A stretch of 51,016 nucleotides of DNA from a virus, in the IMG/VR virus record IMGVR_UViG_3300033571_030110, positions 1 through 51,016 of that record; one strand, given 5' to 3'. Position 1 is the stretch's first letter, and each line of letters opens with the position of its first letter. Under the pieces are notes generated by a model. The model worked only from the letters and a program-made list of their open reading frames with translations, was not told where the DNA came from and made no database searches. This document shows, piece by piece, positions 2,726-24,646 of this stretch. Both the position numbers and the translations under genes were made by a program.

Positions 2726-4651
2726 ATGTCAAATCAATTGCCAACACAGTATCAGCAGTTTATTCATCTAAGTAGGTATTCACGTTGGTTGTCCGAAGAA
2801 AAACGCCGAGAAACTTGGGAAGAAACAGTTGATAGGTACTTTAAGTTTTTCAAGGAGCATCTTTCTGAAAAGCATAAGTTTATTTTAACATCAGAATTAG
2901 AAAAGGAGCTTAAGCAGGCTATTCTTAATCTAGAGATCATGCCTAGTATGCGCGCTCTTATGACAGCAGGAGAAGCTCTTAAGAGAGATAATACGGCAGG
3001 ATATAACTGCTCGTATGTTGCAGTCAACAATGTAAAAGCATTTGATGAAATACTGTACGTTCTGATGTGTGGAACTGGAGTTGGGTTTAGTGTAGAAAGA
3101 CAATATGTTGAAAAGCTTCCTACGATTGCTGAGACATTTAGTCCTTCGGACACAACTATCATTGTTCAAGACAGCAAGGCGGGATGGGCTAGAGCTTTCA
3201 GAGAACTCATCTCTTTACTTATTGGTGGGCAAATTCCGAAATGGGACGTTAGTAAGATTCGTCCTGCAGGAGCGAGACTTAAGACTTTTGGCGGGCGGGC
3301 CTCAGGCCCAGAGCCGCTTGATGACCTGTTCAGGTTTACAACTGAAACTTTTAAAAAGGCTGCTGGCCGAAAACTTACTTCAATTGAGTGTCATGACATC
3401 GTTTGTAAGGTTGCGGAAATTGTCGTGGTCGGAGGTGTTAGACGATCCGCTCTTATATCACTCAGTAACCTCACGGACGAAAGAATGCGAGATGCCAAGA
3501 GTGGCGCTTGGTGGCACGAAAACCCACAAAGAGCATTAGCAAATAACTCCGTCGCATACAAGGAAAAGCCGGAGATAGGCACCTTCATGGAGGAGTGGCT
3601 TGCCTTGTACAAGAGTAAGAGCGGAGAGCGAGGCCTATTTAATAGAGACGCCTGCAAGAAGACAGTGTCTAAGCTTGGCGATAGAAGAGACAGCTCTCAT
3701 GAATTTGGAACGAACCCATGCTCTGAGATCATTCTAAGAGACAAGGAATTCTGCAATCTCACAGAGGTTGTTGTCCGACCTGAAGACGACTACAACAGTC
3801 TCTCTAGAAAGGTTAGGCTAGCAGCTATACTTGGAACATTCCAAGCCTCTTTAACATATTTTCCATACCTTTCAACTAGCTGGAAGAAGAATTGCGAAGA
3901 AGAAGCCTTGCTAGGAGTTTCGCTTACAGGTATAACAGATAACCAAATGATGCGTGACCTCAAGTGGATTGAAAAAGCGCTTCCTGAACTTAAGAACGTA
4001 GCTGTAAATACAAATGAATGGTTTGCAAAAGAAATAGGCATCAACTCTGCTGCGGCAATAACCTGCGTTAAGCCTTCAGGAACTGTGTCTCAGCTGGTTG
4101 ATGCGGCTTCAGGCATACATGCAAGACACAACCAATTCTACATCAGAACTGTTCGCGCAGACAAGAAAGATCCGCTTTGTAAGCTGATGGTTGACGCCGG
4201 TTTTCCACATGAGCCATGCGTTATGAAACCTGATCACACTATGGTTTTTTCATTCCCTGTCAAGTCTCCAGACGGGTGCGTGACTAGAAATGATATGAAC
4301 GCAATTGAACAGTTAGAGCTTTGGTTGGCGTATCAACGCTTATGGTGCGAACACAAGCCTTCTGTCACTATAACCGTAAAGGAGCACGAGTGGATGGATG
4401 TAGGCGCTTGGGTTTACGGTCATTTTGACGAAATATCAGGAATTTCATTCCTTCCTCATTCAGACCACAGCTATAAGCAGGCACCGTATCAAGACTGCAC
4501 AAAAGATCAATATGAAGCTTTATTAGCAAAAATGCCAAAGAATGTAGATTGGACAAAGCTTTCAGAATATGAAGTAGACGATAGCACAAAGGGAACTCAG
4601 ACTTTCGCTTGTTCTGGCGACTCATGTGAAGTTGTAGATTTATCTAATTGA
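2726..4651 (+). CDS. Ribonucleoside-triphosphate reductase, adenosylcobalamin-dependent (class II)
   Basis: 641 residues. Makes dNTPs from rNTPs in the cytoplasm, using adenosylcobalamin to generate the radical. The N-terminal part (SRYSRWLSEEKRRETWEETV) matches monomeric RTPR enzymes. The active-site motif N330-P-C332-S-E334 is present; C332 is the expected thiyl radical position, with C95 (YNCSYV) as a likely partner in the disulfide pair. The loop KPSGTVSQLVDAASGIHARH is typical. The tail ends in C629-x4-C634, the redox-shuttle pair of this class. At 641 residues it is about 100 shorter than the well-known Lactobacillus-type enzyme, so the allosteric or insertion region may be reduced. Being class II, it needs no small subunit or oxygen but does need host B12. 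First gene of the replication operon; dUTPase follows 7 nt later. Confidence 0.93.
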   Translation: MSNQLPTQYQQFIHLSRYSRWLSEEKRRETWEETVDRYFKFFKEHLSEKHKFILTSELEKELKQAILNLEIMPSMRALMTAGEALKRDNTAGYNCSYVAVNNVKAFDEILYVLMCGTGVGFSVERQYVEKLPTIAETFSPSDTTIIVQDSKAGWARAFRELISLLIGGQIPKWDVSKIRPAGARLKTFGGRASGPEPLDDLFRFTTETFKKAAGRKLTSIECHDIVCKVAEIVVVGGVRRSALISLSNLTDERMRDAKSGAWWHENPQRALANNSVAYKEKPEIGTFMEEWLALYKSKSGERGLFNRDACKKTVSKLGDRRDSSHEFGTNPCSEIILRDKEFCNLTEVVVRPEDDYNSLSRKVRLAAILGTFQASLTYFPYLSTSWKKNCEEEALLGVSLTGITDNQMMRDLKWIEKALPELKNVAVNTNEWFAKEIGINSAAAITCVKPSGTVSQLVDAASGIHARHNQFYIRTVRADKKDPLCKLMVDAGFPHEPCVMKPDHTMVFSFPVKSPDGCVTRNDMNAIEQLELWLAYQRLWCEHKPSVTITVKEHEWMDVGAWVYGHFDEISGISFLPHSDHSYKQAPYQDCTKDQYEALLAKMPKNVDWTKLSEYEVDDSTKGTQTFACSGDSCEVVDLSN

Positions 4652-6145: not shown

Positions 6146-6480
6146 AATTTATAAGCAATGCAGATGAAATGCGGGCAGAAAAAGACGTCAGTGTAAATCT
6201 TGTCACAGAGACAGGAGCTGTTACAAATAGCGAATCTTTAGCTGCTGCTAAATCCGTCTCAACAAGCGGATCGACCAAGTTCTTGATAAGAGCTTCCAAA
6301 AGACAAAGAAGACTCTACAATCCAATAGTAGACAAGATAGATCAAAAAAGCGTAATCAGAACAGAGCTGGAATTTGATTTCCAAGATGTATCAAAGGATT
6401 GCTACGACTCTTATATAGAGTATCTTAAGACAAGAAATAGCTATATGCTAACAAAGGCAGAGCTTTTTGCGAAGAGATAA
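6142..6480 (+). CDS. Hypothetical protein
   Basis: 112 residues. Not recognised. A low-complexity Ser/Thr/Ala/Val N-terminal half (TETGAVTNSESLAAAKSVSTSG) precedes a basic segment, RASKRQRRLYNPIVDKI, and a helical C-terminus with aromatic residues. The N-terminal half looks disordered and the basic segment could bind nucleic acid; both are inference. The ATG is in an ATGA overlap with the previous gene. Confidence 0.7.
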   Translation: MKFISNADEMRAEKDVSVNLVTETGAVTNSESLAAAKSVSTSGSTKFLIRASKRQRRLYNPIVDKIDQKSVIRTELEFDFQDVSKDCYDSYIEYLKTRNSYMLTKAELFAKR

Positions 6481-6481
6481 T

Positions 6482-6736
6482 ATGCAAAAAAATAAAGTTT
6501 TAAAGCTTAAAAAAGCCGTGTTTAGTGCCGTCTTAGACAACTGCAAGACTGAAGACGCAGAGCTTTTATCTGCAAAATTGGCTGTGATTATCGATGACTA
6601 TTTTGAAATGATTGACAAGCCAAAGTCAAAACCTTATCTAGCGCCAACTGGCGAAGATAATCCTTCTAATGGCTCTGTGGTCAGAACGAAAGGACAGTCT
6701 GAAAAAGCAGACGCTTTTAGAGCCGGCAGCGCATGA
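6482..6736 (+). CDS. Hypothetical small helical protein
   Basis: 84 residues. I chose the ATG at 6482, one base after the upstream TAA, over the TTG at 6467, which would overlap the previous gene. The N-terminal 50 residues form an amphipathic helical region (LKKAVFSAVLDNCKTEDAEL) followed by a polar, probably disordered tail. No family recognised. The stop overlaps the next ATG (ATGA). Confidence 0.65.
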   Translation: MQKNKVLKLKKAVFSAVLDNCKTEDAELLSAKLAVIIDDYFEMIDKPKSKPYLAPTGEDNPSNGSVVRTKGQSEKADAFRAGSA

Positions 6737-7161
6737 ACGAATACATAAATTCAAATCTAAGAATAGTTTGGATATTGACGTTGGGTGGCGGAGAAATGAT
6801 CCACGACAACGTACAAAAGCCTGGCGATATTTCTGTTTGGCGCAAGACTCAAGAGTCATTGATAGATAGGCCTAAAAATATAAGACTCGCCATAATAAGC
6901 GAAAATAGAATAGTAAAAGAAGTGATAATGGGTGAAAGCTCAAGTCATTTCTTTTTCTCAAGAAGATCAAGACTGACTCTTGGAGAACATGCATCAAAAG
7001 AAGAGTATGGTATTGGCTATCATGATGGTCAGTCCAATACCGTTAGGATAACTTGGTATGACGAAAATCTAGACCCTGTAGAGCTTGACATACGAGAATT
7101 TGAGAAATGCCAACAGACACTAATACCAAAGATTTCGACAGCATATTCGTTCCAAAGCTAA
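6733..7161 (+). CDS. Hypothetical protein
   Basis: 142 residues. Not recognised. It is beta-rich in appearance with a possible hydrophobic strand near residues 9-18 (LRIVWILTLGG) that is too short for a confident membrane segment. Polar loops contain HFFFSRRSRL and a C-terminal part with VRITWYDENLDPVELD. It starts in an ATGA overlap and overlaps the next gene by 55 nt in another frame, long even for this genome. Confidence 0.65.
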   Translation: MNEYINSNLRIVWILTLGGGEMIHDNVQKPGDISVWRKTQESLIDRPKNIRLAIISENRIVKEVIMGESSSHFFFSRRSRLTLGEHASKEEYGIGYHDGQSNTVRITWYDENLDPVELDIREFEKCQQTLIPKISTAYSFQS

Positions 7162-7565
7162 AGATTCCTATCGAAGCTTTGATCACAGAAACAATAATAG
7201 ACAACAAAATCAAATGGAGAGCTAAATCAGGGGCCAATATAACAAGACCCCTGGTTCCTTTTTGGCGCAAGTCTATTTGCAAAGATTATCCCGAGCTTAA
7301 ACAGCTTGGAGAGGAATACTCTTTGGAAATATCTTATGTTAAAAACCTATTGCACATCTTCGATCAATCAAACGTGCTAGAATACGTGAAGGAGCGAGGA
7401 ATAATAACGTTCAGATTCCTTCCTTTGGACAAGCAAAAAACAGTAGTTTACAATCTGTTCCAAAGAGAATTGGAAAGAAGATCTGATAAAAAGGAAGTAA
7501 AGAAAATAGTGATCCCCAAAGAACAGACATTCTTCAGGGAATCAAAAGGATCATCAATTATATGA
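7107..7565 (+). CDS. Hypothetical protein
   Basis: 152 residues. Not recognised. There is a Pro/Arg-containing central part (ITRPLVPFWRKSICKDYPEL), then a helical region and a basic C-terminus (RELERRSDKKEVKKIVIPKE). The ATG at 7107 lies 55 nt inside the previous gene; a later start would remove conserved-looking sequence, so the longer form is kept. It ends in an ATGA overlap with the RecA-like gene, which suggests a recombination or replication accessory role by position only. Confidence 0.65.
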   Translation: MPTDTNTKDFDSIFVPKLKIPIEALITETIIDNKIKWRAKSGANITRPLVPFWRKSICKDYPELKQLGEEYSLEISYVKNLLHIFDQSNVLEYVKERGIITFRFLPLDKQKTVVYNLFQRELERRSDKKEVKKIVIPKEQTFFRESKGSSII

Positions 7566-13281: not shown

Positions 13282-13733
13282 TCGTCACTCTAGGCCAAGA
13301 GTTACTTAATTCCGATATCTACGATGAAGACAGCGTGATTAGGATTCGAATAAGAAATCGAATAGAAACGATTCTTAAGGATCTACCGGCTGGCTATAGA
13401 TGTATTGGTAAATATAAAAATGGCCTGTCAATGGATTTTTGCCAAATCTGCGCCAAGCTCAACATGCTTCAAGAAATAGTCATTCCATATGAAGACAACG
13501 ACAACGCTTGGCCTACCCCAATAAAAAACAGATTTGCAGACATAGTCAAGAAGTCTAAGAAAATAAAGCTTATGCATAAAGGCGGATTCAATCCTAGGAA
13601 GATAAAGGATATGGATCTTTATACGACCTCTTCATCAGATGTGACTATCGATATAACCATATTTAATGGTGTCGAAAAAATAACAGTGATAAAAAACAAT
13701 GAATATAAAATTCCTAAGAGCGTCGTCAATTAA
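13278..13733 (+). CDS. Hypothetical protein
   Basis: 151 residues. Not recognised. A central segment, IVKKSKKIKLMHKGGFNPRK, with a Gly-Gly loop and a Ser-rich loop (DLYTTSSSDVT) could belong to a nucleotide-binding alpha/beta fold, but no diagnostic motif is present. Two Cys (QICAKL and near residue 43) do not form a ribbon. ATGA overlap with the kinase; 35-nt overlap with the nuclease gene. Confidence 0.65.
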   Translation: MIVTLGQELLNSDIYDEDSVIRIRIRNRIETILKDLPAGYRCIGKYKNGLSMDFCQICAKLNMLQEIVIPYEDNDNAWPTPIKNRFADIVKKSKKIKLMHKGGFNPRKIKDMDLYTTSSSDVTIDITIFNGVEKITVIKNNEYKIPKSVVN

Positions 13734-14685
13734 CTCTTACAGAGGTTGTGAGTTTCAGTTTTTCATCGAGCAAATATTAGAGATACCGTCAAAAAGTGGC
13801 AAGAAGGCGCTTCTTGGAACAATCGTGCATCATGTCTTGGAGTTAATGGCTAAAGGCAGCAAGACAGGCAGGAACTTTGGTATTATAACTGATCATGTGC
13901 GCCTTTTGGATATATGTTGGAACAGGTATACAAAGGAAAACCCTGATATGCCTCTTAAGCCTGCAGACAAGAAATTCTGCTTGCAAAGCATAGAAAAGGT
14001 TCTAGGCACACAATACGACCCTAGAAATCTAAAAGTTCTTTTCACAGAAAAACAGTTCAAGATTCCATTGAACACTGAAGGTTTTAAGTATGAATATTAC
14101 AATATAATCAATGGATCATCTGAAAAAGGAAACTACGAGATCAGAGGAACAATAGATCTAATAACAGAAGTGGATAAGGACACAATAGAAATAGTTGATT
14201 GGAAAACCGGTTCTAGAAAATGCTGGAATAGTGGTGAAGTTAAGGAATATGATTATCTGCAGTCTAAGGATGTTCAGCTAAGAATGTATGATTTTGCGTG
14301 TTCTATACTGTTTCCACAATATAAAAACAGGCTGCTTACAATTCATTTCATAAATGATGGCGGCCCTTTTACCGTGGCTTTTGACGACGATCAAAGAAAA
14401 GAGACGGTCGATATAATTAAAAGCACCTTCAATTCAATTAAATGGAATCAGCTGCCAACTAGAATCAAGGAAACCAAGGCCGACGAAAAATGGAAATGCA
14501 AGAGCGTTTGCCATTTTGGTAAGACTATGACGGCTGCTGGGTGCAGTATCTGCGACACTTTGCATTCTTATATGCTTGGAAACGGCATAGACAATACTAT
14601 AAAGCAGATAAATACTATAAAACAATCGCGTTCAGAAGAAAAGGCTAAGCTAACTAGCAACAGAAGAAATACGTTCGAGGAATAA
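13699..14685 (+). CDS. Cas4/RecB-like PD-(D/E)XK nuclease with Cys cluster
   Basis: 328 residues. It has the RecB-family exonuclease layout: the start motif SSINSYRGCEFQFFIE with C17, the helix GTIVHHVLE (motif I His near residue 49), GTIDLI near 150 (motif II Asp), IEIVDWKTG near 166-174 (motif III D-x-K) and a Gln/Tyr motif, VQLRMYDFA. The C-terminus adds four Cys (C267, C271, C282, C285). One N-terminal Cys plus a C-terminal Cys group matches the iron-sulfur cluster pattern of Cas4 and AddB. It would degrade or resect DNA ends. Whether the cluster binds Fe-S or zinc cannot be told. It lies directly before the polymerase gene, 2 nt apart. Confidence 0.82.
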   Translation: MNIKFLRASSINSYRGCEFQFFIEQILEIPSKSGKKALLGTIVHHVLELMAKGSKTGRNFGIITDHVRLLDICWNRYTKENPDMPLKPADKKFCLQSIEKVLGTQYDPRNLKVLFTEKQFKIPLNTEGFKYEYYNIINGSSEKGNYEIRGTIDLITEVDKDTIEIVDWKTGSRKCWNSGEVKEYDYLQSKDVQLRMYDFACSILFPQYKNRLLTIHFINDGGPFTVAFDDDQRKETVDIIKSTFNSIKWNQLPTRIKETKADEKWKCKSVCHFGKTMTAAGCSICDTLHSYMLGNGIDNTIKQINTIKQSRSEEKAKLTSNRRNTFEE

Positions 14686-14687
14686 AA

Positions 14688-16553
14688 ATGAATTACGTAC
14701 CACTACACGTTCACACATGCTGGTCTTTGCTTGACAGCACTTTGGATATCACAGAATATGTTTCCTTCGTAAAGGAAAATGGAGGAAAGGCTTGCGCCAT
14801 CACCGATCACAATAACATAAAAGGGCTTGTACCCTTTTACAAGGCTTGCAAGAACAAAGGCGTCAAGCCTATATTCGGCGTAGAACTTGATGTTTGGCAC
14901 AACGAAAAGTTCATAGGTAGAATAACGCTTTTGGCTAAGAATAAACTGGGCTACAAGAATCTTCTTACCATTGTATCTATAGCTAGATCAAAGGACCGAC
15001 TATCGAGCGACGGTATGGCGAAATCATACCTCAACGAGTTGCACCAATATTCTTCAGGACTAATTTGTCTAATTGGTGATTTAAAAAGTGAAGTCTTTGA
15101 GTCTTCATACGTAAATCCTGAAATGGCTTATCTTTCAGATAGCGAAGAAGAGTGTAGGACTCTACTGAAGAAAGACTTCATTTCTGTAGTATCGTCTGTG
15201 TTAAGCAAGTACAGTAAGGTTTTCAAGGACGTATTTTTATATTTCGATTACTCTAAGTTGCCTTGTCTTAAGGTTTTAGGTGCTGAAATAAAGAAAAGTT
15301 TTCCTGAAGCCATTCCCTGCAACAACGTACACTACCTTAGCCAAAAGGATTTTGACATCCATAGGCTTATAATAAATGATTCTGAGCGTTCTGAGATGTT
15401 AGTCGATGATAAAAGAATATTCGATGAAAGATTTAACTTTTGTCATGTGATGAAAGATATGCCTGAAGGGGAAAAGACTTTTAAGATAGCAGAAATGATC
15501 GAAGACTTTTCTATTGAAGAAAGGCCGATGCTTCCTGAATTCAAGATAAAAGATCATGCTATTCCAGACCAAGATGAATATCTTAAGGGTATTTGCAGAA
15601 AAGGATTTTCTGAAAAGATACTTCCGAAAATAGACTCAAACAAAAGCCTAAGAGAGGTTTATCTAAACAGAATCAAGCATGAGCTTGAGGTGTTCAAGCA
15701 GGCTAAGATATCAGGCTACTTCCTTATCGTAAAGGATATTGTTGATTTTGTAAGAGGGCTTGGATATCCTGCAGACAGTAGAGGTTCGTCTTCTGGATCT
15801 ATCATTTCCTACCTAATAGGTGTGTCTTCAATTGATCCTATCGTGCCTGACCCAACACTTGCTTATTCAAGCGACAGAGAGCTGCCATTCGAAAGATTCT
15901 ATAATGAAGGAAGAAACACTGCTAGCAACGTTTCTCTTCCTGATATTGACATGGATCTTCCTCCATCTGTAAGGTCAGAGGTCATAGAGTACATTAGAGA
16001 AAAATACGGCTTTGATTCTGTGGCTCATATCATAACACACTCCAGGTTCAAAGGTAAAGGCGCCATAAAAGAAGCTTTCAGAATACTAAAACCTGTGTCA
16101 AATTATTTTGACGTGGCAAATGAAATAACAAAGCTATTTGCTGAAGAGGCCAAGATATCTGACGAACTCAGTGAGATTCAAGAAGAAGATCCATCGTACG
16201 GAATAATCAGATGGAATATAGATAACATCAAAGATGTCGCAAAATACTACGAGCAATATAAGGAGGCTTTTGATTTCGCTCTTAGAATAGAAAGACTTCC
16301 AAAAAACGAAAGCGTTCACGCCGCAGGTATAATAATCAGCGACAAAATGCTTTCGAACCACTTTCCAATGACATACTCCTCAAAACTAGACCAAATGGTA
16401 ATTGATGTTGAAGGGGCAGATATCGAGACTTTAGGAGGTGTTAAGTTTGATATTCTTGGTGTTTCCGCATTGGAGAAAATATTCCAAATAGAAAAAATGC
16501 TTAACTTTAAGTTAAATGAAATTAGATTTGGAGTTTTAGCTAATGTCAATTAA
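14688..16553 (+). CDS. dnaE: DNA polymerase III alpha, N-terminal part (PHP and catalytic palm)
   Basis: 621 residues, the first half of a C-family replicative polymerase split in two. The PHP domain is intact in appearance: HVHTCW (HxH), ITDHNNIKG, IFGVELDV and NNVHYLSQKDFDIH. The palm has D419-I-D421 in LPDIDMDLPPSVRSEVIEYI, then the ITHSRFKGKGAIKEAFR region. The third catalytic Asp is D588 in GGVKFDILG. The protein stops about 33 residues later, in the linker where intact DnaE continues to the fingers. The missing part is at 22674-24191; the two sum to 1126 residues, close to a normal DnaE. There is no Cys/Ser intein start at the end. The Shine-Dalgarno is GAGGAATAAAA. The PHP domain may retain hydrolase activity. 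Confidence 0.92.
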   Translation: MNYVPLHVHTCWSLLDSTLDITEYVSFVKENGGKACAITDHNNIKGLVPFYKACKNKGVKPIFGVELDVWHNEKFIGRITLLAKNKLGYKNLLTIVSIARSKDRLSSDGMAKSYLNELHQYSSGLICLIGDLKSEVFESSYVNPEMAYLSDSEEECRTLLKKDFISVVSSVLSKYSKVFKDVFLYFDYSKLPCLKVLGAEIKKSFPEAIPCNNVHYLSQKDFDIHRLIINDSERSEMLVDDKRIFDERFNFCHVMKDMPEGEKTFKIAEMIEDFSIEERPMLPEFKIKDHAIPDQDEYLKGICRKGFSEKILPKIDSNKSLREVYLNRIKHELEVFKQAKISGYFLIVKDIVDFVRGLGYPADSRGSSSGSIISYLIGVSSIDPIVPDPTLAYSSDRELPFERFYNEGRNTASNVSLPDIDMDLPPSVRSEVIEYIREKYGFDSVAHIITHSRFKGKGAIKEAFRILKPVSNYFDVANEITKLFAEEAKISDELSEIQEEDPSYGIIRWNIDNIKDVAKYYEQYKEAFDFALRIERLPKNESVHAAGIIISDKMLSNHFPMTYSSKLDQMVIDVEGADIETLGGVKFDILGVSALEKIFQIEKMLNFKLNEIRFGVLANVN

Positions 16554-16587
16554 AGGAGCTTCAATAATAGCGGTTCAGTTTTCTGAT

Positions 16588-16598
16588 GTGTATATAAA
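16588..16598 (+). promoter_or_regulatory. GTGTATATAAA promoter-like element
   Basis: GTGTATATAAA begins 16 nt before the ATG at 16604. The embedded TATAAA (16593-16598) ends 5 nt before the ATG, so the predicted transcript is leaderless or nearly so. It lies in the 50-nt gap after the first polymerase half and lets the downstream membrane-protein gene be expressed apart from the replication operon. Confidence 0.55.
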
Positions 16599-16603
16599 TT
16601 ACA

Positions 16604-17620
16604 ATGAACAAGGATCTGAAAGAAAAACTAGACAGACTAGTTAAAGTATTAGCTGAGCAGGATGGGCAAACGCCTAAAGATGAAGGCGACGATCCTATTG
16701 CTCAAGAGCTAGCAGACCTTTTAGGTGATATTAGAGAAATACCAGATCCTGATTCTAGTGATGGCAGACCGTGGTGGGATAGCACATTTGGCAGCGTAAT
16801 AATTTTATTAGGATCAACAGCGTTTTGGCAGTTAGTAAAATATTTAAGAAAGAACGGCTGGACTCTGCGGCGTATAGCAGAGTTGTTTATGCGGACAAAA
16901 ACTCGATGCCCGCAAGGCTCAACAGATCCATGTTGCATAGCTTTAAAAAGAATTACGGATGTGCTGCATGATTGGTCTAATGGGCGTGACGGAGATATAG
17001 CGGGACTAATGGACAAAATAAGCGAAATAAGCTCCGTATTATCAGCTATCGCTTCTTGCTCATGGATGAGAGACACGCTACTAGCCGTACTTCAAGCGTA
17101 CCTGAGAGTTTATTTGGTTAATGTTTTAGGTATGACGGAAGAGCAAGCAGCTCAACTCATTAAGAAACTGCTCGAGTGGATTCTTTCCGGCGCAAACCCA
17201 AATAGAAGACCTGTTTTAGCACCTGGATCAAACGATCCATCAGCTGGTGATGAAGGCAACTGCCAACCAAATAAAGGAATAATACAAAAGAGTCTTTGGG
17301 AAAAATTCAGAGATGTTCTAGAAGACTCTGCGTATGTTATAGCTGTAATAGGCGCTATAGCTGCAGTAATAATAGCAGCTATTGTGGCTTGCGGTGGAAC
17401 TTTAGTTGGTTGTGCAGGCTTACCTGCCGCTGTAGCTGCTATAGTAGCGCTATTCGCTAGTATAGGTATAAACATGAGCGAAGATGAAGCCGAGCAGTTA
17501 ATACGAGATCAATCTTTGGCTTCTGGTTGCATTGAAAGAGGAACTGAGGCAGTCATGGCTAGCAGCGAAAGAATAAAAGCCCTTAGATCAGCTTTAAGGA
17601 AAAAACTAACAACCCAATAA
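16604..17620 (+). CDS. Membrane-associated protein, possible paralog of 770-1690
   Basis: 338 residues. An acidic N-terminus (residues 1-55) is followed by a hydrophobic segment near 62-80 (GSVIILLGSTAFWQLVKYL), a helical Cys-containing middle (CPQGSTDPCC near 100), a polar Pro/Asn/Gly linker near 205-225 and a long hydrophobic region near 245-290 (DVLEDSAYVIAVIGAIAAVI). The same order and the DVLE-x2-AY-x-IA motif occur in the protein at 770-1690. There is no signal peptide. It has its own promoter-like element and is followed by a glycosyltransferase gene with another. Function unknown; a membrane-anchored partner of the glycosyltransferase is inference. Confidence 0.75.
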   Translation: MNKDLKEKLDRLVKVLAEQDGQTPKDEGDDPIAQELADLLGDIREIPDPDSSDGRPWWDSTFGSVIILLGSTAFWQLVKYLRKNGWTLRRIAELFMRTKTRCPQGSTDPCCIALKRITDVLHDWSNGRDGDIAGLMDKISEISSVLSAIASCSWMRDTLLAVLQAYLRVYLVNVLGMTEEQAAQLIKKLLEWILSGANPNRRPVLAPGSNDPSAGDEGNCQPNKGIIQKSLWEKFRDVLEDSAYVIAVIGAIAAVIIAAIVACGGTLVGCAGLPAAVAAIVALFASIGINMSEDEAEQLIRDQSLASGCIERGTEAVMASSERIKALRSALRKKLTTQ

Positions 17621-17630
17621 CGTCTTTTAC

Positions 17631-17639
17631 GTGTATTCA
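17631..17639 (+). promoter_or_regulatory. GTGTATTCA promoter-like element, predicted leaderless start
   Basis: GTGTATTCA begins exactly 14 nt before the ATG at 17645, in the 24-nt gap between two genes. No Shine-Dalgarno lies between it and the start codon. Confidence 0.55.
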
Positions 17640-17644
17640 AATAC

Positions 17645-18697
17645 ATGGCAACCCAAAGACTACTTTTTATAGTAAAACAGCGTTATAATTATGGTTCTCC
17701 AACCAAAAGTTATGGGCTTTATAATTCTTGCGACTTCGTTGCAAGAGCGTTGTCTAAAAAAGGAATAGAATCTAAAGTAGTCCAAGTAATTGACAATAAT
17801 TACATCGACGCAGAAGTAAGCAAGTTCAAACCTACTATATGCTTCATCGAAGCCTTGTGGGTAGTTCCATCAAAGATAAAAGAGCTTGCCGCTCTTCACC
17901 CAAATGTTGAATGGGTCATCAGACTTCATTCAATGATACCATTCCTATCAAACGAAGGCATGGCTTTTGAATGGATGAATGATTATATCGAACTTAGAAA
18001 AGAAGGAATAAAGATATCTTTAAGCTGCAATAATCCAAAGCTTTTCCAACATCTTAAACCTTTGTATAAATACGTTTCGTATACACCCAACGTTTATCTT
18101 CCAAACGAAAAAGAAGCAACATTTTCTTTTGATTACTCTGCAGAGAACACTATAAACATAGGCTGCTTCGGCGCCTTAAGACCGCTAAAAAATACTGTTC
18201 AACAGGCTATACTGGCAATAGTTTTTGCGGATTCGATAGAAAAAAATCTTAATTTCCACGTGAACGTATCTGAGCATGAGAACTTGGTTGCTACTCCAAT
18301 ATTAAAAAATCTAAGAGAGCTTTTTTCTAAGACTAAGCATAATTTAGTAGAGCATCCTTGGTATGAGCATCAAGACTTCTTGCAGTTGGTTAAGGCTATG
18401 AATTTTGGAATGCAAATTTCATTTAGCGAAACTTTTAACATAACAGCTGCAGACTTTGTGTATTCAGAAGTCCCAATTGTTGTTTCAAATGAAATAAAAT
18501 TCGTAACAGACCATTGTAGGTCTGATGTTCACGACGACAAAAAGATACTTGAAGCTATGAAAGATGCCTTCTACAATGCAGAGTCAGATGGAAGGCTTAG
18601 CGTCTCAAACGCCAAAACTACCACCACTAATCTAGCCCTGCTGAACGATCACAACAGAATGGCTATGCGTGATTGGTATAAATTCCTAGGGTTTTAA
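17645..18697 (+). CDS. Glycosyltransferase-like protein, GT-B fold
   Basis: 350 residues. The N-terminal Rossmann half begins RLLFIVKQRYNYGSPTKSYG and includes PTICFIEALWVVPSKI. The second half starts with INIGCFGALRPLKNTVQQ, the typical strand and loop opening the donor domain. Near residues 258-280 FSETFNITAADFVYSEVPIVV occupies the GT4 position, with a Glu where the nucleotide-sugar contact is expected; the canonical second Glu of E-x7-E is less clear. Substrate unknown. It is transcribed after the membrane protein at 16604 from its own element and ends convergently, overlapping the minus-strand lipoprotein gene by 4 nt. Confidence 0.72.
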   Translation: MATQRLLFIVKQRYNYGSPTKSYGLYNSCDFVARALSKKGIESKVVQVIDNNYIDAEVSKFKPTICFIEALWVVPSKIKELAALHPNVEWVIRLHSMIPFLSNEGMAFEWMNDYIELRKEGIKISLSCNNPKLFQHLKPLYKYVSYTPNVYLPNEKEATFSFDYSAENTINIGCFGALRPLKNTVQQAILAIVFADSIEKNLNFHVNVSEHENLVATPILKNLRELFSKTKHNLVEHPWYEHQDFLQLVKAMNFGMQISFSETFNITAADFVYSEVPIVVSNEIKFVTDHCRSDVHDDKKILEAMKDAFYNAESDGRLSVSNAKTTTTNLALLNDHNRMAMRDWYKFLGF

Positions 18698-18912
18698 TCC
18701 TTCTTGTCTTTTTTCTTAACAATCTCTTTATATCCCCACATAATGGCTATTGCCGCTAGAGGCACATACCATAGCACCCATCCCCACCCTCCGTCCTTCA
18801 CCACTACTCTTTGAGGAACAGTATGATTCGGCTGCTTTTGAGGCGATATGATTTGAGGGGTTATCGAACACGCCTGTATAAATAAACATGCTGCTATTAA
18901 AAATGATCTCAT
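18694..18912 (-). CDS. Small lipoprotein with a second membrane segment, possible spanin
   Basis: 72 residues. A 14-residue signal (MRSFLIAACLFIQA) ends in a lipobox with C15, so outer-membrane lipidation is likely in a Gram-negative host. A polar, Pro-rich linker of about 27 residues follows, then a hydrophobic segment near 43-60 (WVLWYVPLAAIAIMW) and a Lys-rich end. Lipobox plus C-terminal membrane segment is the layout of unimolecular spanins, which fuse inner and outer membranes at lysis. The linker is very short for spanning a periplasm, so a different small lipoprotein is possible. It follows the holin-like gene with a 4-nt overlap. Confidence 0.65.
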   Translation of the reverse strand: MRSFLIAACLFIQACSITPQIISPQKQPNHTVPQRVVVKDGGWGWVLWYVPLAAIAIMWGYKEIVKKKDKKD

Positions 18913-19340
18913 GACTTATTAGACGCTGCAGCGCTCCCAAAGTAAAAACCTACTATACTCAACAGTACCTGTCTATACTCTTCTGCGTACAAGTATCCAT
19001 TCAATTCAACAAAAAATGTTTTTGTAACAGAAGGTATTATCGAAAGGTCTGGTGTTGCAGCCTCTATTTCAACAAACGTGGGAATGCCAAAAAACGGCAG
19101 TATAAAAGGAGCTGCTAAAGTTGCGAAAAGAACTACCAATACTATTAACTGTCTTACGCCTTTCCCAACGTCGATAGGTACTCTTTTGGCCGCAGACTCT
19201 ATGCTCTTTTCTTTTTGATCGTTGAGCGCTATCAATCGCTCAAACATTTGTTTGTCGTTTTCTCTTTTTTCTGCCAGGTATCTAAAAATGAATCCAGTTA
19301 CACTTCCGCCCAGCATTGATAGGAGTTCAATTGGGATCAT
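18909..19340 (-). CDS. Holin-like membrane protein with three membrane segments
   Basis: 143 residues. Hydrophobic segments lie near residues 5-22 (ELLSMLGGSVTGFIFRYL), 66-86 (LIVLVVLFATLAAPFILPF) and 118-135 (VLLSIVGFYFGSAAAS), with a charged helical loop between the first two. The GG-x-VTGF start and the Ser/Ala/Lys end resemble three-segment holins of the gene-transfer-agent type. A holin would permeabilise the inner membrane at lysis. No endolysin is next to it, so the call rests on topology and on the neighbouring lipoprotein. It overlaps both flanking genes by 4 nt. Confidence 0.55.
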   Translation of the reverse strand: MIPIELLSMLGGSVTGFIFRYLAEKRENDKQMFERLIALNDQKEKSIESAAKRVPIDVGKGVRQLIVLVVLFATLAAPFILPFFGIPTFVEIEAATPDLSIIPSVTKTFFVELNGYLYAEEYRQVLLSIVGFYFGSAAASNKS

Positions 19341-19669
19341 TTAGCGTTCTTATTTATGTGATTGACAAACTTTGCATATCTTCCAGATGTATAATCTGTG
19401 ACGCTCTTTTTCTTTTCCCACATTCTGCAAGACCAATATCTAGCCTTCCATTTAGGACCTGGGTTATCATCGCAGCTGTGTCTTGATCTAAAGTTTTTTC
19501 TTCTGTTAGGACTGTCTCTTTTGATTTCCATCTTGGGGTCGCCAAAAGTGACACGCACAACATTCCCTTTGTCGTTCTTGACATAGACTACGAATTTCTT
19601 CTTTCCGTATCCAGGCTCGCCTTTTCTGATTCTTCTTGGTTTGTTTAAAGCAACTTTTTTCTTATCCAT
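19337..19669 (-). CDS. Small basic phage-conserved protein
   Basis: 110 residues, very basic. The central block, VTFGDPKMEIKRDSPNRRK followed by NFRSRHSCDDNPGPKWKARYWSCRMW, is a pattern I recognise from small proteins or domains in many environmental tailed phages, where it can be fused to head or protease proteins. Two Cys and many Arg/Lys could bind nucleic acid or metal. The molecular role is not known. It sits in a six-gene minus-strand island with other phage-conserved small proteins. Confidence 0.65.
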   Translation of the reverse strand: MDKKKVALNKPRRIRKGEPGYGKKKFVVYVKNDKGNVVRVTFGDPKMEIKRDSPNRRKNFRSRHSCDDNPGPKWKARYWSCRMWEKKKSVTDYTSGRYAKFVNHINKNAK

Positions 19670-19670
19670 T

Positions 19671-20048
19671 TTATTTTCTCTTTTTCTTTTGTGGATGACA
19701 AGATGGAAGCAAGTCTACGTCAAACGGTTTTCTCTTGAAAGAGCCAGTGCGAAGTGCGTGAAGAAAGCCATTAACTCTTCCATATCCCCATTGCTCAGGT
19801 CCTGAAACGTTAGGTCTAACACTTTGCGGATTTGTTTTGTAAGCTCCGACTCCTCTTCTGAATACAGTCATGAGTGTTCTAGAAGACGTATTCTTACAAG
19901 AATCTTTTCCGTATTTTTCGTTGTGTTCGGAAGCCTTCTTTGAAATAGTTTCTTTCACAGACTTAGAAGCTTCAGCGGATGTAGCGAAGAATATTACTTC
20001 TAAAAATGGGATGTTTAATTCTGATTCTGGTATTTCTAAATCTTCCAT
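19671..20048 (-). CDS. Small phage-conserved protein
   Basis: 125 residues. The first 40 residues are acidic and helical. The second half contains RRGVGAYKTNPQSVRPNVSG and then EQWGYGRVNGFLHALRTG, a motif seen in small proteins and in domains of larger virion-associated proteins of environmental phages. The tail is basic (HPQKKKRK). Function unknown. One base separates it from the next gene downstream, and it begins just after the stop of the gene at 20049-20579. Confidence 0.65.
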   Translation of the reverse strand: MEDLEIPESELNIPFLEVIFFATSAEASKSVKETISKKASEHNEKYGKDSCKNTSSRTLMTVFRRGVGAYKTNPQSVRPNVSGPEQWGYGRVNGFLHALRTGSFKRKPFDVDLLPSCHPQKKKRK

Positions 20049-20579
20049 TTAATCCTTGCCTTTGTTATATTTACGAATCTTTGAGTGCATGGTAGCTCTG
20101 TTGCTGCATGGCATGTAATAAGTCTCGTTTGGCTTTAAGCCTTCTTGTTTGCCGTCTATGTTGAAAAACTCTTGAGTTCCCTTACATCCTAGTTTTTTAG
20201 CCATTTTCTCTGCGGAGTCTACGCTTGTAAATGTATAGGATTTGTAATTCTCTCTATCTATTTTCGCTGCAGAAAGTACCTCGTTTATGAAGGCCTTGCC
20301 TGATTTTCTCAGTTTTGCTAAAATTCCTCTTGCTTTTGCTTGCAGTCTAGCCTTAAGCTGGGCTGAGATTTTTGCCTGCGGAATCCTTGAGATGGCGTTT
20401 CTAACGTGTATTGGGTCTATCTTTCCAGAGGCGTCTTTATATGGAAAGTGTCTTAAAGATCTAGGCGTAGTCTTACCCTCAGAATCTTTTTTACCACCAG
20501 TCTCTATATACATGAAAGCTGAGTCTGGTAGATCGTTTTTGTACTTTGTTGTCCAAACAGCAGATTTTGAATTATTCAT
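20049..20579 (-). CDS. Small phage-conserved protein (head-protein-associated domain)
   Basis: 176 residues from the ATG at 20579, which lies in the last codons of the upstream gene; a GTG four codons earlier is an alternative. The N-terminal part has the recurrent phage motif DLPDSAFMYIETGGKKDSEG followed by TPRSLRHFPYKDASGKID and HVRNAISRIPQA, which I associate with domains attached to phage head or protease proteins. The C-terminal 70 residues form a second region with two Cys and a YTFTSVDSAEKMAKKLG helix. Function unknown. Confidence 0.7.
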   Translation of the reverse strand: MNNSKSAVWTTKYKNDLPDSAFMYIETGGKKDSEGKTTPRSLRHFPYKDASGKIDPIHVRNAISRIPQAKISAQLKARLQAKARGILAKLRKSGKAFINEVLSAAKIDRENYKSYTFTSVDSAEKMAKKLGCKGTQEFFNIDGKQEGLKPNETYYMPCSNRATMHSKIRKYNKGKD

Positions 20580-20838
20580 TGTAAACCCCACGCGAAAGTT
20601 GATCTTCTGTCTTACTTATCACATCTCCAGGGCTAAAATTGGATCCTTTATTGGTGACCTTGTAGTGGATTAGATATCCAGAATTATTGCCTAACTCCTC
20701 AATCTTTACCACCTCGCCCATGCTTCCATAGTGCATACATTTTGTGTTGGTATTTACCACAACATCTCCAATCTTAAAGCCCTTGTAGCTAGATTTTGTA
20801 TGCCTGAGGAGTTTATTCATTGCTTCTTTTAAGGACAT
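20572..20838 (-). CDS. Small KOW-like beta-barrel protein
   Basis: 88 residues. The core GFKIGDVVVNTNTKCMHYGS, then GEVVKIEEL, looks like a small KOW/SH3-type barrel widespread in phages. First gene of the minus-strand island, 26 nt downstream of the palindromic GTGTATACAC element; its leader has only a weak GG-containing ribosome site. Function unknown; binding to RNA, DNA or a virion protein is possible. Confidence 0.7.
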   Translation of the reverse strand: MSLKEAMNKLLRHTKSSYKGFKIGDVVVNTNTKCMHYGSMGEVVKIEELGNNSGYLIHYKVTNKGSNFSPGDVISKTEDQLSRGVYNE

Positions 20839-20854
20839 TTTGCGAACCTACAAG

Positions 20855-20864
20855 GTGTATACAC
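20855..20864. promoter_or_regulatory. Palindromic GTGTATACAC, bidirectional promoter-like element
   Basis: The 10-bp perfect palindrome GTGTATACAC sits between divergent genes. Read on the plus strand it is exactly 14 nt before the ATG at 20869 (predicted leaderless). On the minus strand it is 26 nt before the ATG at 20838. A symmetric core lets one site present the same -10-like sequence both ways. Confidence 0.6.
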
Positions 20865-20868
20865 ATGT

Positions 20869-21480
20869 ATGAAGACTTCCAAAGCCTCCAAAGACTTTCT
20901 GAAATATGTCAGAAAAATCTGCAAAGATAACGGCGTAACCCTCAAGTTTGGAAAAGGAAGACTAGTAAAGATGCAGCCTTTTAATTTCAAAGTCGCCGGT
21001 TATTTTGACGAAGAAGAAAAGCTTTTACATTGTGGAAGGGGATTAAATGAATCAGATTTTTTGTCTACTTTGGTTCATGAATTCGCACATGTTCTGCAAT
21101 GGATAGATGGCGACACAACATACAAGAATTGCGATCATGAAAAGTATGGAAGCGTGCAAAGCTTGGTTTGCCAATGGATTAAGGACGAAGTCTCTATAAG
21201 AGATAGAGAGCTTATAAACTATACGAAAAAGATGATAGCATGTGAACTCAATGCTGAGAGAAGAGCTGTAAAACTAATAAAGAAATTTGATCTTCCTATA
21301 GACATCAAGCGCTACTCAGAGCACGCTTCTGCTACACTTTACACCTATTGGATGACGCTTAAAACCAAGAAGTGGGATTTTAAGATAGGAGCAAAACAAA
21401 GAGCTGCAAGCGGTCATTCGCTCAGAAGATCATTTAACTCCTTACCGAAGAAAGTCGAAACATCCTTTCTAGAAGCCTAA
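20869..21480 (+). CDS. Putative zinc metalloprotease-like protein (HExxH)
   Basis: 203 residues. LVHEFAHVLQW near residues 75-85 is a HExxH zinc-binding helix, and CELNAERRAVKLIKKF near 122-137 offers the third Glu ligand, as in gluzincin or SprT/ImmA-like folds. The N-terminus is basic and beta-rich. In phages such proteins may be structural-protein proteases, but the substrate is unknown. It starts a transcription unit behind the GTGTATACAC palindrome with no Shine-Dalgarno; DnaQ-type exonuclease follows after 8 nt. Confidence 0.7.
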   Translation: MKTSKASKDFLKYVRKICKDNGVTLKFGKGRLVKMQPFNFKVAGYFDEEEKLLHCGRGLNESDFLSTLVHEFAHVLQWIDGDTTYKNCDHEKYGSVQSLVCQWIKDEVSIRDRELINYTKKMIACELNAERRAVKLIKKFDLPIDIKRYSEHASATLYTYWMTLKTKKWDFKIGAKQRAASGHSLRRSFNSLPKKVETSFLEA

Positions 21481-21488
21481 AATAGGTT

Positions 21489-22124
21489 GTGGCGAACAAT
21501 AAAAACTTCATCGTATTTGATATAGAAACTAGCGGCCTCAATCCCAAAGACGCAGAGATAGTACAAATTTCAGCTACAGCCTTGAAATATTCGGACTATA
21601 CAGAAATTGAGAACGGCAAGTTTGATCTGCTAATAAAACCGCAAAAACCAGCCCAAGCTAGCAAAGAAGCTATAGCTGTAATCGGAGAATCCCTTTGGAA
21701 TAAAGCCAACAGCTATGGATTGCATCCAAAAGTAGCTCTTAGAAAGTTTAAAGAGTATATCGACTCGATGAATCCAACTAAGAAATTCTGGACAGCGCCT
21801 ATACTAGTAGGCTTTAATATTACAAACTTTGATATACCTTTTTTGAAACATCACATGGCGGATCAAAAGGTTTCTTCTATTGACGAAGATCCAGCTTGGT
21901 CTAATATACAGATAGACATGATGCCTCTTATGTTTTCAATATTTGGCAGGGATGGGTTAAAGAACAATAAAATGGATACTTACGCAGAATTGATGGGGCT
22001 GTCTAGATCTACAGCTAATCATGACGCCTCGGAGGACGTTGAGATAACTAAGAAAATGTTTCAACGATACATGAAGTTCATGGTAAAGATAAGACCAAAA
22101 ATAAACACAAAAATCAAGGAATAA
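21489..22124 (+). CDS. DnaQ-like 3'-5' exonuclease (DEDDh)
   Basis: 211 residues starting at GTG (21489). Exo I motif FIVFDIETSGL with D11 and E13; Exo II region LVGFNITNFDIPFLK; Exo III ANHDASEDVEITKKMF with the DEDDh His. This is the proofreading (epsilon-like) fold. C-family polymerases of the DnaE type lack their own exonuclease, and here the gene lies two genes before the polymerase C-terminal half, so it is probably the phage proofreading subunit. The Lys-rich tail (RPKINTKIKE) might contact the polymerase; this is inference. Confidence 0.88.
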   Translation: MANNKNFIVFDIETSGLNPKDAEIVQISATALKYSDYTEIENGKFDLLIKPQKPAQASKEAIAVIGESLWNKANSYGLHPKVALRKFKEYIDSMNPTKKFWTAPILVGFNITNFDIPFLKHHMADQKVSSIDEDPAWSNIQIDMMPLMFSIFGRDGLKNNKMDTYAELMGLSRSTANHDASEDVEITKKMFQRYMKFMVKIRPKINTKIKE

Positions 22125-22125
22125 G

Positions 22126-22674
22126 ATGAAAAACTTTATCTATGCAAATGATTGTATCGTAAAAAAAACTCGAAACCTAGAGCGTTGCTATAGGGACGAT
22201 ATATTTATTGACGTTCTAAGTAAATTCAAAGAGCTTCCAGTAAAAATATTCCAGGTAGGCGCAATAGAAACTCTTGATTTTCGTTGGCATTCTGGCTCTG
22301 GATGGTCAGATATAATATTTGGCTCTTATGTTAAAAAGCATGGCGGTAAGATAAAAATATGTGATATAGATTTAAATCACATAGCAAACAGTAGTTTTGT
22401 AGCAAAAAATCTAGACTACGAAATAGTAACAGAGCTAGCAGACGCCGCTGAAATAATAGGGCAAGAAGAATACGATATCTATTATCTAGACGGCGGTAAT
22501 GACCCAAAAGAAACAGAAAACCAGTTCAATAGCATAACTAGCAAAAATTGCGTAGTTCTTATTGACGACCTTTTCATAAAAGGAACTACACTACGTGAAA
22601 AAATTAAATTTGATTTAGTCTATGACATTGGTAATGGATTTGGAATCAAGTACATAAATAATAAAAAATCATAA
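22126..22674 (+). CDS. Methyltransferase-like Rossmann protein
   Basis: 182 residues. IFQVGAIETLDFRW is a plausible SAM-binding motif I, KIKICDID an acidic motif II strand end, and YDIYYLDGGND motif IV-like, followed by CVVLIDDLFIKGTT. The order fits a class I SAM-dependent methyltransferase of the Methyltransf_24 type, but motif I lacks the full GxGxG, so binding of another nucleotide is possible. The last base of its TAA is the first base of the ATG of the polymerase C-terminal half (TAATG), so the two are translationally coupled. Confidence 0.55.
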   Translation: MKNFIYANDCIVKKTRNLERCYRDDIFIDVLSKFKELPVKIFQVGAIETLDFRWHSGSGWSDIIFGSYVKKHGGKIKICDIDLNHIANSSFVAKNLDYEIVTELADAAEIIGQEEYDIYYLDGGNDPKETENQFNSITSKNCVVLIDDLFIKGTTLREKIKFDLVYDIGNGFGIKYINNKKS

Positions 22675-24191
22675 TGTTTACAACATCAGACATTTCCCTT
22701 AAAAACGAAAAGACTTGGCGACTAATCCAAAATGGTCACACAATAGGCGTTTTTCAACTAGAGAGTGATCTTGGTAAAAAATGGTCCGCAACCATAAAGC
22801 CTTCAAATATAAATGAACTTAGCGCAGTCATATCATTAATCAGACCAGCCTGTCTAGAGTCAGGGATGACTGATACTTATTCAAAAGTTAAAAACGGTCT
22901 TTCGGAGAAGCCAGACTACAACGATGAGACTGTAAATTCAATCCTTTCACCTACTCTTGGCGTCTTAATTTACCAAGAGCAGTTAATGAAATTCGGCGGA
23001 GACATAGCGTGGAAAGATATGCCTTATTTGGAGCGGTTAGTTATTGTCGATAAGCTAAGAAAGGGTATCGGCAAAAAAGACCAGAAGATTATCATAGACT
23101 TAAAGGATAAATTCATTGCAGGCTGCTTGAAAAATGGCAGATCTAAAGATATGGCCGAAAGGCTATTTTCTCTCATTGAAGGGGCTGGAAGATACGCCTT
23201 CAACGATGCGCACGCTAAAAAGTACGCGCTTTGGGCTTATAAGACGGCATATCTAAAGGCGAACTTTCCACTTGAATTTTATTGCGTGTACCTTACTTAC
23301 AGTAAGGGTAAGCAAAAGCCTAGAGAAGAAATACAAGATTTGATTAATGAAGGTCGAATGCTTGGAATAGAGATCCTGCCGCCATCTATTTCAAAATCAG
23401 AAAATGATTTCTGCATTAAGCAGGACAACATAATTTATGGCCTTTCGCATATAAAGCAAGTTGGAGATTCTGATGCTACAGCTATCGTGAATGTAAGACC
23501 AAAAAGCTTTGTTGAGCTTTTGAAGCTACATTTTGGAAACGGTCAGTTCAAGATAAGATCATTGGCAGTAGAGAGCCTGATTAATTGCGGCGCCTGTGAT
23601 GAGTACGGGTTTTCTAGATCAACCATGCTAAGTATATATCTTATGCTAAGGCAGCTGACTGCGAAAGAAATAGAATTTGTTTTAAGTGAACTGGACGAGA
23701 AGTCTATCGCTGCCGACCTTATAAAAGCTGTTAGGATTTGCGCTGAAACTAAATCGGTTAAAAAACGTAAGGAAATAGTAATGTCTGAGGCAAACTCTAT
23801 AAATCTTTTATCAAACGACTCTGCAATGGTTAAGAGTTCCGCCGAAAAAGACTTGATGGGCTTTGCATTTAGCTATGACCATAATGTCAATACAGAAGAC
23901 GATTGGTCTTGCAAGGACTGTTTCAACAAAACAAAAAACAATAGGAAACTTTCTGCCGTTCTTACTGCAAAAATAACAAAACTAAAACCAACTACCACCA
24001 AGAAGGGTAAAAACCCTGGTCAGGAAATGTGCCAAATAACAATTTCAGATAACACTGGAACGATAAACGTTGTTTGTTTTCCTGAGCAGTACCAAAAATT
24101 AAAGAATGTAATTTCAGAAGGTGCTTATTGCATGCTCAAATTAAATGGCACTGGATTCGGTTGGTCTGTAGAAAGTATCAAAATAAACTAA
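22674..24191 (+). CDS. dnaE: DNA polymerase III alpha, C-terminal part (fingers, beta-binding region, OB)
   Basis: 505 residues, the second half of the split C-family polymerase. It begins, after 12 new residues, at the conserved EKTWRLIQNGHTIGVFQLES, directly continuing where the first half stops in intact DnaE. Fingers motifs follow: SLIRPACLESGM, GVLIYQEQLM, DKLRKGIGKKD, GAGRYAFNDAHAKKYALWAY and KTAYLKANFPLEFY. The C-terminus is an OB domain (LSAVLTAKITKL, ITISDNTGTINVV). It has its own ATG, coupled to the upstream gene by TAATG, so it is a designed separate polypeptide, not a frameshift. Together with 14688-16553 it should make one active enzyme by subunit assembly. Confidence 0.92.
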   Translation: MFTTSDISLKNEKTWRLIQNGHTIGVFQLESDLGKKWSATIKPSNINELSAVISLIRPACLESGMTDTYSKVKNGLSEKPDYNDETVNSILSPTLGVLIYQEQLMKFGGDIAWKDMPYLERLVIVDKLRKGIGKKDQKIIIDLKDKFIAGCLKNGRSKDMAERLFSLIEGAGRYAFNDAHAKKYALWAYKTAYLKANFPLEFYCVYLTYSKGKQKPREEIQDLINEGRMLGIEILPPSISKSENDFCIKQDNIIYGLSHIKQVGDSDATAIVNVRPKSFVELLKLHFGNGQFKIRSLAVESLINCGACDEYGFSRSTMLSIYLMLRQLTAKEIEFVLSELDEKSIAADLIKAVRICAETKSVKKRKEIVMSEANSINLLSNDSAMVKSSAEKDLMGFAFSYDHNVNTEDDWSCKDCFNKTKNNRKLSAVLTAKITKLKPTTTKKGKNPGQEMCQITISDNTGTINVVCFPEQYQKLKNVISEGAYCMLKLNGTGFGWSVESIKIN

Positions 24192-24232: not shown

Positions 24233-24646
24233 ATGGCAAATTTCAACAAAGTTATCGTCGCAGCAAATCTTGTTTCTGATCCCGAGCTAAAGTCAGTTGG
24301 TGACTCAAATGTAGTTAGATTTAGAGTTGCTATCAATCGAAAGTTTACAACCAAGTCTGGCGAAAAGAAAGAAGAGAGCACTTACATCGACGCTGAGATG
24401 TGGGGTGCTAGAGCTTCAGTTATATCTGAGTACCTAAAGAAGGGCGATCCAATTCTAATGGAAGGACATCTAAAGCAGGAGAATTGGGAGACAAAGGATG
24501 GAGAAAAGCGAAGCAAGATCTTAGTGGCAATCGAAGACTTTGAGTTTATGAATGGCAAGAAGGATGCTGACAGCAAGCCTATGCCAGAAGCAAAGTCAAA
24601 ACCAAGACAAAAGTCTGAAGTATCATTGCAGGATATTCCATTCTAA
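24233..24646 (+). CDS. ssb: Single-stranded DNA-binding protein (SSB)
   Basis: 137 residues from the ATG at 24233; an in-frame ATG 105 nt upstream would overlap the polymerase gene and is rejected. The N-terminal OB-fold has the bacterial SSB features: NKVIVAANLVSDPEL, VVRFRVAINRKFTT, STYIDAEMWG, YLKKGDPILMEGHLKQE and SKILVAIEDFEFM. The tail ends in DIPF, the acidic tip used to recruit partners. It coats ssDNA at the fork. The dedicated promoter element and the hairpin at 24692 suggest it can be made in excess of its neighbours. Confidence 0.95.
   Translation: MANFNKVIVAANLVSDPELKSVGDSNVVRFRVAINRKFTTKSGEKKEESTYIDAEMWGARASVISEYLKKGDPILMEGHLKQENWETKDGEKRSKILVAIEDFEFMNGKKDADSKPMPEAKSKPRQKSEVSLQDIPF

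Follow-up and report, generated by a model that had tools for sequence, protein, structure and literature searches.

A phage DNA polymerase III alpha subunit divided between two genes at the palm-fingers linker

Bacteria replicate their DNA with DNA polymerase III (Pol III) alpha, which in nearly all cases is a single large chain. The stretch analysed here (the window) is IMG/VR virus record IMGVR_UViG_3300033571_030110, 51,016 bases in length, which carries two dnaE-like open reading frames (ORFs), dnaE-N and dnaE-C, 6.1 kb apart. This locus raises the question of whether the two ORFs encode one polymerase in two pieces and, if so, how the pieces came apart and how they act together. The split is confirmed to be real, the ORFs being two complementary halves of DnaE. 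It is very probable that a family C alpha was fissioned once at the palm-fingers linker and that the separately made chains assemble non-covalently into a working alpha, probably binding the DnaQ-like exonuclease encoded between them.

Features of the two halves

Both ORFs were found where an earlier note on this DNA had placed them (Table 1), and its claim of a break in the palm-fingers linker that yields two polypeptides is borne out by the sequence evidence. The product of dnaE-N (alphaN) matches PHP (7.6e-33) and the palm model in full (DNA_pol3_alpha, 1-260/260, 1.2e-58), and ends, as the note had it, 33 residues past the third catalytic Asp (residue 588 of 621). The product of dnaE-C (alphaC) matches DNA_pol3_finger (22-166/166, 1e-32), HHH_6 (2.9e-16) and an OB fold (3.1e-6), and its start corresponds to residue ~585 of Escherichia coli alpha, just ahead of the fingers, in a profile alignment to 5fku. 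Profile alignment of both halves with E. coli Pol III alpha shows no part of the polymerase core missing or duplicated. AF2 models of the single chains reached a pLDDT of 87 and a pTM of 0.86 for alphaN, and 90 and 0.80 for alphaC; in Foldseek searches the alphaN model matched Taq and E. coli Pol III alpha (E 6e-39) and the alphaC model matched Pol III alpha (E 1e-22). The domain set of a family C DnaE (PHP, palm with three catalytic Asp, fingers, HhH, OB) is present but spread over two chains, in place of the usual single polypeptide. PolC was considered and rejected, as the PHP domain is uninterrupted, the exonuclease is a separate gene and DnaE structures are the better match. The second half has its own ATG, as claimed before, which shares one base with the stop codon ahead of it (TAATG). 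A third open frame linking the halves was looked for and none was found.

Occurrence and phylogeny

Relatives were gathered from viral contigs by searches with each half and by profile searches, and range from ~33 to 89% identity to the window. Collapsing at 99% identity and keeping loci readable on both sides gave 136 distinct loci over two pooled sample sets (individual relatives carry L numbers below); six further clusters without upstream sequence are outside this number. The same break point, which the earlier note proposed to seek in other phage genomes, was found at the palm-fingers junction in 136/136 loci, with none fused. The halves are separated by a gene for a DnaQ-like exonuclease in all 68 loci of the first set and in 136/136 over both sets. 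The scripted dnaQ count was 76/77 in the second set and 135/136 pooled; the locus concerned, L312, was read by eye and has its dnaQ ORF at 3466-4164, which the position filter had excluded. Chance is excluded by the recurrence of this break, with its intervening dnaQ, in every one of these distinct relatives.

The start of dnaE-C lies at most 30 nt from the dnaQ stop in 64 of 68 loci, overlap being the commonest arrangement. The gap between the halves has a median of 864 bp and ranges from 603 to 9299 bp. In the subgroup of the window, the interval from dnaE-N to dnaQ carries genes for a membrane protein and for glycosyltransferase-like and metallopeptidase-like products, together with a minus-strand island; this cargo is largely syntenic in L002, L016, L025 and L031, partly so in L008, L010 and L012, and absent from L003. 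Since the cargo varies among relatives while the exonuclease is constant, the 6.1-kb distance in the window reflects cargo that comes and goes. In gene order the conserved core unit is therefore alphaN - epsilon - alphaC, most other gap genes being cargo inserted in the subgroup of the window.

In a FastTree phylogeny of 231 C-half sequences, built with long-branch warnings, 143 split rows fell on one side of a branch with a support of 100, against 86 fused DnaEs. An earlier tree of 164 rows agreed, with Corynebacterium phage P1201 weakly placed beside the split clade. A scan centred on Moorella phage MTATph1 found nearly all DnaEs fused at the palm-fingers junction, some of them with a break at the PHP/palm border. 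The sequence comparisons thus point to a single fission in the common ancestor of a large clade of phages, inherited since, with Rossellomorea phage phiT1 and P1201 as apparently separate events. Sampling by similarity favours sequences near the queries, so that these searches do not settle how large the clade is or which fused DnaE is nearest to it. No clade member was recognised among the deposited phages searched, where the matches listed were below 40% identity and the records closest to the window were possibly left out. The only member found in bacterial genomes is L214, a 9.4-kb contig of a Flavobacteriales metagenome-assembled genome, which may be mis-binned phage DNA.

Some relatives depart from the common form of the halves. 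In L034, L037, L038, L040, L091 and most of their subclade, dnaE-C has an N-terminal extension of ~25-40 residues before the fingers. The extension contains a conserved F-x-C-G-C-x-F motif plus one more Cys (LxCxKTW), possibly metal-binding, and is absent in the window's subgroup. In L118 (3148-4930) and L009 (5709-7438), dnaE-N lies in two overlapping frames, probably through a frameshift or a local assembly error.

Conservation of the halves

The palm residues D421, D423 and D588 are invariant in 53/53 aligned homologues, and the residues of the fingers (FQ-E, RP, YQEQ, LRK-GKK, RY-FN--H) are essentially invariant in 56. In the pairs that could be used, the ratio of nonsynonymous to synonymous substitution rates (dN/dS) was roughly 0.015-0.07 for each half; the N half of window/L002, in which synonymous sites are saturated and give no ratio, and the pair L003/L013, with too few changes, were set aside. 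Pairwise distance matrices of the N and C halves are correlated at r=0.96, a value reached in 0/999 permutations. Exactly one palm and one fingers domain were found per record in 17 records of 51-205 kb (the window and 16 large relatives), with no second copy of either, so that no hidden intact dnaE was found elsewhere in these records. Both halves are under strong purifying selection and co-inherited, and pseudogenes are ruled out by the dN/dS values.

Comparison with known split polymerases

Like the window, the gp43A/gp43B type of split encodes a phage replicative polymerase as two polypeptides without an intein, and the window shares with that type two complementary ORFs and no ligation element. 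The gp43A/gp43B type differs in being family B rather than family C, in having a seg endonuclease or an untranslated spacer, and in showing no link to a separate proofreading gene. Rossellomorea phage phiT1 (gp20/gp18) is broken at the same palm-fingers linker, its C half starting MFDILDIPLDD..., but has only a 49-residue ORF between the halves and no dnaQ; in the tree phiT1 is placed with fused phage DnaEs, so that its split is an independent one. Corynebacterium phage P1201 (gp59/gp58) likewise has two genes annotated as DNA polymerase with the break at this linker; unlike those of the window, they are overlapping frames, and since its relative Zion is fused (1097 residues), the P1201 split is either recent or a frameshift. 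In AnnaSerena of Microbacterium cluster EF (gp56/gp57), where the split dnaE is remarked on in the text of PMC7302621, the genes are adjacent, and their lengths (345 + 767 residues) place the break near the PHP/palm border, not between palm and fingers. Phage DnaEs also have a second recurrent break point, which lies where PHP meets palm or slightly within the palm (L121, L127, L133, L134, L147, L205 and L212). The cyanobacterial split DnaE also derives a family C alpha from two distant genes, but its break lies further downstream and its halves are ligated by an intein, which the window lacks.

Isolated DnaE splits (phiT1, P1201, AnnaSerena) were thus already annotated, and split phage polymerases were known before. 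What appears to be new is one old fission that a large clade has inherited, dnaQ invariably separating the halves; a word search of open-licence papers found no paper on the split in this clade. It provides a natural, long-stable two-chain form in which the palm-fingers linker can be cut, the cut being kept over divergence to about 35% identity, and a ready system for the study of replicase assembly and of the relation of the proofreading subunit to the break. Automated annotation would show two partial dnaE genes, and where full-length DnaE serves as a phage marker this clade of uncultured phages could be miscounted or missed. One of the collected records, OQ572403 (Pseudomonas phage Y1, 'UNVERIFIED'; L120), carries apparent lpxA, lpxB and rnhB genes with a full bacterial dnaE, and this region is apparently bacterial chromosome within a phage record.

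Proposed assembly of the two chains and alternative explanations

In the proposed mechanism, alphaN (PHP and palm) and alphaC (fingers, HhH and OB) would be produced as separate chains, both from a single co-directional replication cluster, and would join without a covalent link across the palm-fingers boundary to give a working alpha. The DnaQ-like exonuclease would probably be bound too, forming an alphaN-epsilon-alphaC core. Bacterial epsilon is bound to alpha at the PHP domain, so that the intervening DnaQ-like protein plausibly joins alphaN in the same way; the alpha-epsilon chimera structures 4gx8 and 4gx9 are among the Foldseek matches of alphaN. There are precedents (PMC2988022): in Aeromonas phage 25 the two pieces of a split polymerase, gp43A and gp43B, co-purify and show polymerase activity, and in Aeh1 a split NrdA retains full function. 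By analogy with these cases we infer that the two chains assemble physically and are active. A stronger proposal is that the fixed gene order reflects a three-chain core in which epsilon, translationally coupled to alphaC, bridges or chaperones assembly, and that the split is functionally maintained and not merely tolerated; this is rather doubtful, and a part for epsilon in aiding the assembly of the halves is speculation. Three points weigh against assembly into a working replicase. The window is a single virus record and probably a fragment, no beta-type clamp gene was found in the 17 records (other clamp types not having been searched), and no canonical clamp-binding motif was seen between the HhH and OB parts of alphaC. 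For processivity the phages may rely on the clamp of the host or on some other factor.

That the split is an artefact of assembly, frameshift or rearrangement has a negligible probability. P1201 is possibly such a case, having overlapping frames and a fused relative of 60% identity, but the 136 distinct contigs share the break and the dnaQ between in mostly intact reading frames, and L002, 85-89% identical and from a different metagenome, has almost the whole layout of the window. An assembly rearrangement, named in the earlier note as a ground for refutation, is excluded because independent contigs, L002 included, share this layout. It is also improbable that one or both halves are decaying or serve separate roles, alphaN as a PHP nuclease and alphaC as a DNA-binding factor, with the phage genome copied by the host polymerase. 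The loss of PHP residues in L036 and the missing beta-type clamp would fit such roles; however, neither polymerase half-site is lost in any aligned sequence, dN/dS is mostly below 0.07, and both halves lie within a replication cluster (RecA, DnaB-like helicase, primase, exonuclease, SSB, the single-strand DNA-binding protein).

The halves might instead be rejoined into one working chain by an unrecognised split intein, a trans-splicing intron or ribosomal bypass, which is very improbable. Inteins do occur in the clade (in L073 a split intein interrupts dnaE-N at another site, an endonuclease-like ORF lying between the intein parts), and a split intein ligates cyanobacterial DnaE. Against this, no Pfam intein or Hint match was found in either half and neither edge of the palm-fingers break has intein sequence in any relative inspected, in agreement with the earlier note, which had seen no intein at the edges. 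Neither IntN nor IntC stands at the break, and the break is not at the site in the C-terminal half used by the split-intein DnaE; the region that we take to be that site (RYAFNDAHAKKY) is intact in alphaC, again as stated before. No Rfam family and no tRNA matched anywhere in the window, dnaE-C begins at a start codon of its own that is coupled to the gene before it, and the gap, 0.6 to 9.3 kb in relatives, includes minus-strand genes in the window. An intein and an intron at the break were both ruled out on these grounds. As to the origin of the fission, a homing-endonuclease insertion that caused the break and later decayed, as with mobE in Aeh1 nrdA, dnaQ having come afterwards, is compatible with two assembling chains; it is possible but on balance unlikely. 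Endonuclease-driven splits are known in phages (PMC2988022) and the dnaE of KLEB27-3 is interrupted within the fingers by an HNH gene, but no endonuclease gene was seen at the junction in the relatives examined, all of which, even the most divergent, have dnaQ there. A recent insertion of this kind is ruled out by the same lack of such a gene.

The dnaE-N of L073 (4912-8042) was itself found to be broken by the split intein, with IntN after ...GPGRG|C and IntC ending ...IGVHN|S. Its dnaE is in three pieces, and the endonuclease-like ORF (6422-7228) separates the intein parts. The arrangement resembles the 'fractured genes' of Dassa et al. 2009, as described in a citing paper (PMC10448857).

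Gene content of the window

The content of the gap agrees with the earlier description (Table 1). From dnaE-N onwards it holds genes for a membrane protein and a glycosyltransferase-like protein, then six minus-strand ORFs and a gene with a weak metallopeptidase-like match, and finally the DnaQ-like exonuclease gene and a 182-residue ORF. The DnaQ-like protein has the DEDD motifs FDIETSG, FDIPFL and HDASED, identified by eye. Upstream on the + strand lies a replication cluster of ribonucleotide reductase, dUTPase, RecA, DnaB-like helicase, primase, dNMP kinase and the RecB/Cas4-like exonuclease.

Table 1. Genes of the split dnaE locus and its flanks, in window coordinates
Feature	Position	Strand	Basis
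RecB/Cas4-like exonuclease; conserved flank immediately upstream of dnaE-N	13699..14685	+	phrog_69, 1.2e-21; 40-90% homologues likewise placed in relatives
dnaE-N (alphaN), 621 aa; PHP and palm/thumb of Pol III alpha, C-terminal end in palm-fingers linker	14688..16553	+	Pfam, AF2, Foldseek
Membrane protein, 338 aa; cargo	16604..17620	+	Position matches in L002, L016, L025, L031
Glycosyltransferase-like protein, 350 aa; cargo	17645..18697	+	By eye, without Pfam or PHROG match; same place in L002 (80%), L031 (60%)
Opposite-strand island, six ORFs (72, 143, 110, 125, 180, 88 aa); cargo	18694..20838	-	Mostly syntenic in L002, L016, L025, L031; some in L008/L010/L012
Metallopeptidase-like protein, 203 aa; cargo	20869..21480	+	Weak DUF6782 match, 4.8e-4, below cut-off; syntenic in relatives
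dnaQ-like 3'-5' exonuclease, epsilon-like	21489..22124	+	phrog_192 'DNA polymerase exonuclease subunit', 7.5e-22
182-aa ORF between dnaQ and dnaE-C, methyltransferase-like by eye; inserted in few relatives	22126..22674	+	Homologues at same place in 2/18 compared loci, L031 (60%) and L023 (36%) only
dnaE-C (alphaC), 505 aa; fingers, HhH and OB fold of Pol III alpha	22674..24191	+	Pfam, AF2, Foldseek
Single-strand DNA-binding protein; conserved flank immediately downstream of dnaE-C	24233..24646	+	phrog_44, 1.3e-34

A small conserved ORF of about 57-72 residues with an SCC motif (e.g. ...ERVSCCK...) lies between dnaE-N and dnaQ in many relatives, for example at 8018-8215 in L091 and 9068-9247 in L034. 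Elsewhere in the window, the minus strand carries a very long ORF of 2996 residues at 41451-50441.

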